Positions 41,419 to 43,411 of a stretch of DNA of 45,639 bases are shown here, piece by piece. Made by a program: the position numbers and the translations under genes. The notes under the pieces were generated by a model. That model was not told the origin of the DNA, made no database searches, and saw only the letters and a program-made list of their open reading frames with translations. Each line of letters begins with the position of its first letter. The first letter of the stretch is position 1. The DNA comes from Desulfurococcaceae archaeon (lineage in GTDB: Archaea; Thermoproteota; Thermoprotei_A; Sulfolobales; NBVN01), in assembly GCA_020833255.1 (NCBI GenBank), contig JAJHQR010000004.1, positions 1 through 45,639 of the forward strand. The letters are read 5' to 3'.

Positions 41419-42318
41419 CTAACGTGTTAGTTCCTCAGGTAATGAGTAGGTCGTGATTCTCCACATCCTCTTACCTACTTCGCTGAGTTTTCTCAGGGCT
41501 TCAGCGCCGTTGATGACCGCGCCTTCCCTCAACTCAATTCTAACGCCTACGATCACGCCGTCCTTGATTAAGACCCTGACTTTATTTCCTTCCGTGTCCG
41601 CGGCGAGCGCGTAGAGGGTTTTCAGTTTTGCCTCCGCGCACTCCTTACTTAATCTCGTCAAGAGCTCGGGGCCGCCTAGCTCTTCCCTAACCTCGTTTAA
41701 CGTTCTTGATTTGAGTATTATTTTGCTTAGTAAGACCTCGTCTTCAAGAGCTGCGGGGTTCTCGGCAAGACCTACCTTCACTACCTCAGCAGAGGGTTTA
41801 GGTAGTTCCTCACGCTTGACCTGCTCTACAGGAACTACTTCCGTCGCTGGTTGCGCGACCCCTGCTCTCTTAACAAGCCCTTTCTTCCAAGCCTCAATCA
41901 CTGCAGGCAACTCTTCTATCAGCCTATTAGTGTATGACTCGATGAATTCCTTAACACGAGGTTTCAAAGCTTTCTCATTAGCTGACTTAACTGAGACCCT
42001 ACCCCTAACTATGGTTAAGGGCTTGCCAAGCAATTCCCTGCCCACAACGCTCAACCTAAGCTCAAGACTTAAGTCGTCACGTCCCTCAATCACTATGATA
42101 ACGACCTCGCCCTCCCTACTAGTGCTCACTCTGAAGCGTGCCTTACTCGAATAATCACCTATCCTCAAATTAGCTAAGACCTCGCCACCACTCAATACCT
42201 CGATTAAAGACTCTATAATAGGCCATAAACCTAGATGTAGCTGAAGATCTGATAAAATAGGGAGAACCTCGTCAACGTGTAGGGAAAGAGCAACACTAAA
42301 CTCATTAACTATGACCAA
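41419..42318 (-). CDS. Unrecognised protein, possible SRPBCC-like N-terminal domain
   Basis: A 299-residue protein I do not recognise. The N-terminal 145 residues alternate strands and helices and end with a long helix (PRVKEFIESYTNRLIEELPAVIEAW), which would fit a START/SRPBCC-like lipid- or ligand-binding fold. A Pro/Glu-rich linker (about 165-185) joins a helical and beta-rich C-terminal domain (SKIILKSRTLNEVREELG, then VRVLIKDGVIVGVRIELREG). No transmembrane segment or catalytic motif is evident. The ATG at 42318 is 40 nt from a TATA-like TATATATTTTT on the reverse strand. Stands alone; the 119-base gap to the TFE-beta-like gene holds nothing I can name. Confidence 0.6.
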   Translation of the reverse strand: MVIVNEFSVALSLHVDEVLPILSDLQLHLGLWPIIESLIEVLSGGEVLANLRIGDYSSKARFRVSTSREGEVVIIVIEGRDDLSLELRLSVVGRELLGKPLTIVRGRVSVKSANEKALKPRVKEFIESYTNRLIEELPAVIEAWKKGLVKRAGVAQPATEVVPVEQVKREELPKPSAEVVKVGLAENPAALEDEVLLSKIILKSRTLNEVREELGGPELLTRLSKECAEAKLKTLYALAADTEGNKVRVLIKDGVIVGVRIELREGAVINGAEALRKLSEVGKRMWRITTYSLPEELTR

Positions 42319-42356
42319 TCTCTCAGGCCCCGAAATATTTACGTGACGGCGCTAAA

Positions 42357-42365
42357 AAATATATA
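42357..42365 (+). promoter_or_regulatory. TATA box for the C/D box sRNA (possibly bidirectional)
   Basis: AAATATATA is centred about 25 nt before the predicted sRNA 5' end at 42386. On the reverse strand the same AT-rich block could serve the gene starting at 42318. Confidence 0.45.
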
Positions 42366-42385
42366 CTCTATAAGAATCTTTTGAT

Positions 42386-42443
42386 TAGGTGATGTGATAC
42401 TAGGATAACTGATTTAATGATGTTGTGGCGGCTGTCTGACTCG
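42386..42443 (+). ncRNA. C/D box guide sRNA
   Basis: The boxes come in the right order and spacing: C box GTGATGT (42389-42395), 13-nt guide GATACTAGGATAA, D' CTGA (42409-42412), 4-nt spacer, C' ATGATGT (42417-42423), 12-nt guide TGTGGCGGCTGT, D CTGA (42436-42439). C and C' differ from consensus RTGATGA only in the last base. Archaeal C/D sRNAs have exactly this plan. The second guide pairs with the 16S rRNA 530-loop sequence around CAGCCGCCGCG (8 Watson-Crick pairs in a row, then G-U, C-G, G-U). By the N+5 rule it would methylate the C that follows CAG. I could not assign a target to the first guide. Flanked by TATA boxes on both sides. Confidence 0.75.
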
Positions 42444-42452: not shown

Positions 42453-42484
42453 CCTAGATTTTGCTTTTTCTATTAGGTTGCGGT

Positions 42485-43411
42485 ATGAGCTGGGCTCTAG
42501 TTCTTAAGAAGGCTTCGGAGATTTTGGTTGAGAAGGATTATGAGGTAAGGCTTATTATCGCGTCCCTGCTTGCCGAGGGCCACGTCCTCATAGAGGGAGT
42601 GCCCGGCATAGCTAAGACCTTAACCGCTAAGACCGTGGCTAAGCTCCTGAACCTAGACTTCAAGAGGGTTCAGATGACGCCGGATTTACTGCCCACAGAC
42701 ATAGTAGGTGGTTACGTTTATGACGCTAGGCAGGGATCCTTCACCCTCAAGAAGGGCCCTGTATTCACTAACGTATTACTGATTGACGAGATTAATAGGG
42801 GGTCGCCTAGAACCCAGTCAGCCCTGCTTGAAGCAATGCAGGAGAGGCAGGTAAGTATTGAGGGCCAGACATTCCCTCTCGAGAAACCCTTCATAGTCCT
42901 AGCTACTCAAAACCCGATAGAGTTCGAGGGTGTTTTCCCCTTACCTGAGGCACAGCTAGATAGATTCTTAGCCAGGATAGAATCAACCTACACCTCAACG
43001 GAGGGCTTGAAGAGAATCATTAAGGAGATAGACCAGATCGAGGAAGGGTTTAATGCGTTAAGCCCGGTGATGGGTAGAGAGGAGGTCCTTGAGTCTATTA
43101 AGGAGGTCCGTAAGGTCAGGGTCGACGACTCAATATACGACTACACAGTTAGGTTGGTTGAGGAGTCGCGCAAGCATCCTGCGGTCAAGCTAGGTGCTTC
43201 CCCTAGAGCGGGCATAGCCCTCGTAAGACTTGCTAAAGCGCTAGCCTACATAGACTCAAGAAATTACGTGATCCCGGACGATATCAAGAGCGCGGCTAAG
43301 CCCGTACTATCACATAGAATAATACTTAAGCCTGAGTACGAGATCAGCGGCGTCAACTCAGGGAAGGTTATTGAAGACCTCCTAGCAAGCGTGGAGGTCC
43401 CGAAGCCTTGA
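42485..43411 (+). CDS. MoxR-family AAA ATPase
   Basis: About 308 residues of the MoxR AAA+ class. Walker A is EGVPGIAKTLTAKTVA (about 43), the Walker B is LLIDEINRGSPRTQSALLEAMQERQV (about 105), sensor 1 is LATQNPIEFEGVFPLPEAQLDRFL, and the lid has GASPRAGIALVRLAKALA. MoxR proteins act as chaperones for von Willebrand-type or membrane complexes. The tracked start at 42461 adds eight residues and lies too close to the TATA box; ATG at 42485 (MSWALVLKK) is better. Followed by the DUF4129-like gene with a TTGA overlap. No DUF58 gene is seen in the window. Confidence 0.9.
   Translation: MSWALVLKKASEILVEKDYEVRLIIASLLAEGHVLIEGVPGIAKTLTAKTVAKLLNLDFKRVQMTPDLLPTDIVGGYVYDARQGSFTLKKGPVFTNVLLIDEINRGSPRTQSALLEAMQERQVSIEGQTFPLEKPFIVLATQNPIEFEGVFPLPEAQLDRFLARIESTYTSTEGLKRIIKEIDQIEEGFNALSPVMGREEVLESIKEVRKVRVDDSIYDYTVRLVEESRKHPAVKLGASPRAGIALVRLAKALAYIDSRNYVIPDDIKSAAKPVLSHRIILKPEYEISGVNSGKVIEDLLASVEVPKP

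Follow-up and report, generated by a model that had tools for sequence, protein, structure and literature searches.

Archaeal C/D box sRNPs are formed when L7Ae binds two k-turns within a guide sRNA, after which Nop5 and fibrillarin assemble upon the complex (PMC4644070). Helix 18 of the 16S rRNA is recognized as a hotspot for the predicted C/D guides of archaea, and crenarchaeal double guides directed to this helix, namely Sac sR115, Tte sR114, Pca sR28, and Iho sR21, have the equivalents of E. coli A535 and G515 as their targets (PMC4644070). Separate evolution of the two guides carried by a single molecule is likewise a known trait of archaeal C/D sRNAs (PMC4644070, PMC7994747). The locus described here lies within a 45,639-nt stretch of a thermophilic Desulfurococcaceae archaeon (hereafter the window, meaning the whole stretch of DNA analyzed) and, with high confidence, encodes a C/D box sRNA that is similarly directed to helix 18 but to a different base, C522: its D guide would direct 2'-O-methylation of that residue, and it represents an order-wide family in which the D guide is conserved while the D' guide has been replaced (Table 1).

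A scan of both strands of the window for the C-D'-C'-D layout returned a single occurrence, at 42389-42439 (+), against a chance expectation of 0.007 per window as estimated from dinucleotide-preserving shuffles, confirming the four boxes, standard spacing, and two guides of 12-13 nt (here 13 and 12 nt) recognized in the original prediction; guides in archaeal C/D box sRNAs typically measure about 10-13 nt. Both CTGA boxes are exact, while boxes C and C' read RTGATGT as opposed to the consensus RTGATGA; since each ends in T and not in A, these C-type boxes are good without being perfect. By inspection, and using the pairing criterion for C/D boxes of PMC7994747, k-turn potential is present at both C/D and C'/D', including the tandem G.A pairs, the U-U pair, and the base pair between the sixth position of the C-type box and the first position of the D-type box. 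The terminal stem is short (approximately two pairs by eye), and RNA folding yielded no stable fold, as is usual for C/D RNAs.

Putative signals for transcript initiation and termination flank the boxes (Table 1), and a search for a hairpin terminator following the sRNA found none. Gene order is intact in the congener G027, where a symporter gene, an ORF of 120 aa, the sRNA, and moxR follow one another, and is partly kept in G028, G029, and G030, in each of which the 120-aa ORF adjoins the sRNA. The sRNA, which lies upstream of the moxR gene, is probably transcribed from a promoter of its own. A 299-aa ORF at 41419-42318 (-), divergent from the sRNA, has no match in Pfam.

Table 1. Features of the sRNA locus and its surroundings, with positions given in the window.
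Feature	Position	Strand	Basis or remark
C/D box sRNA gene	42386..42443	+	Architecture scan and matches to models R1 and R2; span approximates the mature RNA according to the original prediction
TATA-like archaeal promoter element AAAAAATATATAC, putative	42354..42366	+	Read from sequence; ~25 nt upstream of box C
Box C, GTGATGT	42389..42395	+	Sequence and layout scan; core kept in homologues
D' guide GATACTAGGATAA, 13 nt	42396..42408	+	Target searches: no credible target
Box D', CTGA	42409..42412	+	Sequence and layout scan
Spacer, TTTA	42413..42416	+	Between D' and C'
Box C', ATGATGT	42417..42423	+	Sequence and layout scan
D guide TGTGGCGGCTGT, 12 nt	42424..42435	+	Complementary to 16S 519-529 (E. 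coli numbering); C522 is the base predicted to carry the 2'-O-methyl
Box D, CTGA	42436..42439	+	Sequence and layout scan; invariant in homologues
T-rich stretch TTTTGCTTTTTC, possible sRNA transcript end	42459..42470	+	Inferred from sequence
MoxR-type AAA ATPase gene (AAA_3 + AAA_lid_2)	42485..43411	+	Downstream neighbor of the sRNA

Homologues, collected within the order by DNA search, pattern search, and model searches, retain all boxes and were found across the order, with named carriers including Zestosphaera tikiterensis, of the same family, and the Sulfolobales archaea Acd1 and HS-7. The pattern search identified 21 places as compared to four for a reversed control pattern, and where the GTGGCGGCTGN core lies beside CTGA a C box is found upstream at the right distance; bacterial matches of the pattern scan were without this upstream C box, look like chance, and were set aside. 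Model R1 matches the window at 42385-42442 and, at a cutoff of E<=0.01, a total of 111 among 211 genomes from the order, the weakest of these matches being partial and uncertain, and it also matches genomes outside its building set at E below 1e-9. Model R2 was built from other families only, and contains no sequence of the taxonomic family to which the window belongs; its sole match in the window is nonetheless the sRNA locus (42407-42439, E 1.8e-7), and in a 300-genome sample of the phylum it matches 38 genomes, 35 of which fall inside the order. The patterns and models used for collection include the D guide and so bias the homologues toward that guide, but this bias does not explain the independent boxes, the synteny, or the pattern of substitution. 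Within one homologue (L019, from G185, about 1445-1522), a GC-rich hairpin-like insertion precedes C'.

These homologues also bear upon whether the locus might instead be an unexpressed sequence that resembles a C/D RNA by chance or through decay. No Rfam family matches the window locus at its gathering score, a result that, together with the terminal T of both box C and box C', would fit such a sequence; sub-threshold matches to sR11, sR2, and snR51 are weak and do not constitute membership. The rarity of the layout in shuffled sequence and the presence across the order of homologues with boxes and guide intact argue against chance or decay, which is considered extremely improbable. Architecture and homologues together support the identity first proposed for the locus, that of a C/D box sRNA.

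Within the same genome, the 16S gene was located with an Rfam model, and its 530 loop, GUCUGGUGUCAGCCGCCGCGGUAAUACC, contains the exact target GUGUCAGCCGCCGCGGUAA. The D guide forms 11 pairs with this site, two of which are G-U, with a mismatch at guide position 1, such that the match originally proposed from the near-universal loop sequence is borne out in the organism's own rRNA; the N+5 base, paired at guide position 5, is C522 (E. coli numbering). Taken by itself, however, the complementarity of the D guide has no statistical significance as evidence for a target: when 150 random 12-mers were drawn from the window, 23 of them (~15%) reached a run of at least 11 pairs with the organism's own rRNA, and 8.5% of shuffled D guides score as well as the real one. 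Complementarity was therefore rejected as sole proof of the target. Because a run of this length is not significant, and because sites in 23S rRNA and tRNA-Gly score about as high, sequence matching within one genome cannot settle which RNA is targeted.

Comparison with relatives is considerably more informative. The register of the D guide, placing C522 at N+5, is identical in all 69 homologues examined (from 69 genomes of the order), guide positions 3-10 pair with 16S in every one of them, and the G at position 11 pairs with C528 in 67. The 530 loop is itself identical in all readable 16S genes. Where the guide does vary, a C-to-U change opposite G524 occurs together with a U-to-C change opposite G527, giving either GUGGCGG or GCGGUGG; these variants exchange which of the two pairs is G-U, and pairing with 16S is kept.

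A site in helix 91 of 23S rRNA, GCAGCCGCCAAG, could be the target of the D guide instead of or besides C522, with methylation at approximately the equivalent of E. coli 2536. The organism's own helix 91 offers 10 contiguous pairs, nine of them Watson-Crick, in the same N+5 register; the helix sequence is shared by G026, G027, and G029 of the genus, and helices 90-93 are established as a hotspot of methylation (PMC4644070). Yet the site varies between species by compensated changes in the stem that the guide does not follow: among the 32 genomes with a readable 23S site, positions 3-10 are fully paired with 23S in only four, all belonging to the window's genus, as compared to 32 of 32 for 16S. 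Moreover, the G at guide position 11 pairs with C528 of 16S and not with the A found in 23S, and variants whose tenth guide position is C remain paired with 16S but break with 23S. Helix 91 was accordingly rejected as the conserved target on account of the variation of the site, and a role for it beside or in place of C522 is regarded as unlikely. Similarly doubtful is a scenario, limited to the window's genus, in which one guide would serve two rRNAs, acting on C522 of the 16S decoding centre as well as on helix 91 of 23S, close to the peptidyl transferase centre, the 23S stem having drifted into the same sequence and the D' guide having fallen out of use.

The 3' acceptor strand of tRNA-Gly, CCGGCCGCCGCA, was also weighed as a target for the D guide, as the organism's own tRNA-Gly reaches a score of 27.6, equal to that of the 530 loop. 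Both sites contain GCCGCCGC, so that a match to one entails a match to the other. What distinguishes them is guide position 3, a U in 69 of 69 homologues, which forms a Watson-Crick pair with A520 of 16S but a mere wobble with the G of the tRNA, and on this basis the tRNA was rejected; in addition, guide position 12 does not track the A of tRNA-Gly, and the acceptor strand is already base-paired in the folded tRNA. This target is thus judged very improbable. Taken together, the register and pairing of the 69 guides, the substitutions that they have undergone, the variability of the 23S site, and the U at position 3 identify 16S as the conserved target.

The D guide, then, very probably directs methylation of 16S C522, in the decoding region of the ribosome. 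This base had been named in the original prediction, and its assignment is supported by conservation of guide and register, by substitutions that keep pairing, and by exclusion of helix 91 as the conserved target; it is a predicted target well supported by comparison with relatives. In the mechanism proposed for C522, the expressed sRNA would assemble with L7Ae, Nop5, and fibrillarin, its D guide would pair with residues 519-529 of the 530 loop (helix 18), and fibrillarin would methylate the 2'-O of C522 in accordance with the N+5 rule. Pairing of the D guide probably also aids the folding of helix 18, which would amount to a chaperone role.

The history of the D' guide appears quite different. 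When compared to the organism's own 16S, 23S, and 39 tRNAs, it yielded no convincing site; the initial observation that it lacks a recognizable target therefore holds, while the accompanying suggestion that it might act on a tRNA or on 23S finds no support in these searches. The D' guide of several other families, AUCCCGACCRCUC, forms 12 pairs with 16S GAGYGGUCGGGA, placing N+5 at the equivalent of G550, 28 nt from C522, while in the Sulfolobaceae it reads AGACCUUUGGGA and forms 10 pairs with a 23S site. Within the window's genus it differs species by species, with no shared or credible target, and looks like an orphan. A pattern search within the taxonomic family for a further sRNA bearing the G550 guide recovered none in the genus, its only hits, in G002 and G003, being the homologues themselves. 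As judged from these sequences, the sRNA family thus spans the order, with a conserved D guide and a D' guide that has repeatedly been replaced.

Conceivably, the D' guide has a target that is neither rRNA nor one of the collected tRNAs, or it works through one of the weak sites; the sRNA would then be a true double guide in this organism. Orphan guides elsewhere have later been matched to non-ribosomal targets (PMC7994747), and the D' guide has an 8-pair match to the D-arm of one tRNA gene, probably tRNA-Glu, that 3.7% of shuffles also reach. This match begins at guide position 5 and thereby omits positions 1-4, however, and the D' guides of congeners are mutually different and share no common target; a second active guide is accordingly considered rather improbable.

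The rRNA genes of these organisms display features of their own. By model match, the 16S of the window's genome measures 2405 nt and its 23S measures 3273 nt, and because of these lengths both appear to be intron-bearing (L001, about 1847-2500, and L002, near the A-loop, respectively); the apparent 23S intron interrupts the A-loop immediately following GGGGCT (about position 2552 in E. coli). The 16S of Zestosphaera tikiterensis (G030; L202, from about 2000) has an apparent intron directly after CCCGCGAG, within the sequence targeted by the D' guide of other families. Finally, the 23S of G028 (L088) differs from that of its congeners at helix 91, possibly reflecting contamination of this MAG from another archaeon.

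The significance of these observations is twofold. They provide a firm comparative case, holding order-wide, for the guided methylation of a single base of the 530 loop, and one that can be tested in the culturable Sulfolobaceae. They also show clearly that both guides of a single sRNA can follow separate evolutionary courses, the D guide being fixed while the D' guide is directed to 16S G550 in some families, to 23S in another, and to nothing recognizable here.

Among described families, Rfam RF01139 (sR2), a C/D box sRNA family of Pyrococcus, has in common with the window sRNA a GGCGGCU core in the D guide. Its gathering score of 42 is not reached by the window (15.2 bits), nor by a Sulfolobaceae homologue, L157 (29.6 bits, E 1e-4). 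In the sR2 consensus the core directly abuts box D, two nt nearer than in the window sRNA, which would shift its N+5 base onward by two nt, to near G524; in their other guide, sR2 and the window sRNA are unrelated. A text search of the literature with the guide sequences returned no paper, and the family may already have been described under the name of a Sulfolobus sRNA. Relative to archaeal C/D box sRNAs as a class, the L7Ae-Nop5-fibrillarin guides, there is no difference of kind: the four boxes, the two guides of 12-13 nt, the short spacer, the N+5 geometry, and an rRNA target in the helix 18 hotspot are all alike, and the particulars here are C and C' boxes that end in T and a D' guide that is orphan-like in the genus. 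Viewed comparatively, this is an RNA of an ordinary kind for which the case for the predicted target is unusually clear.
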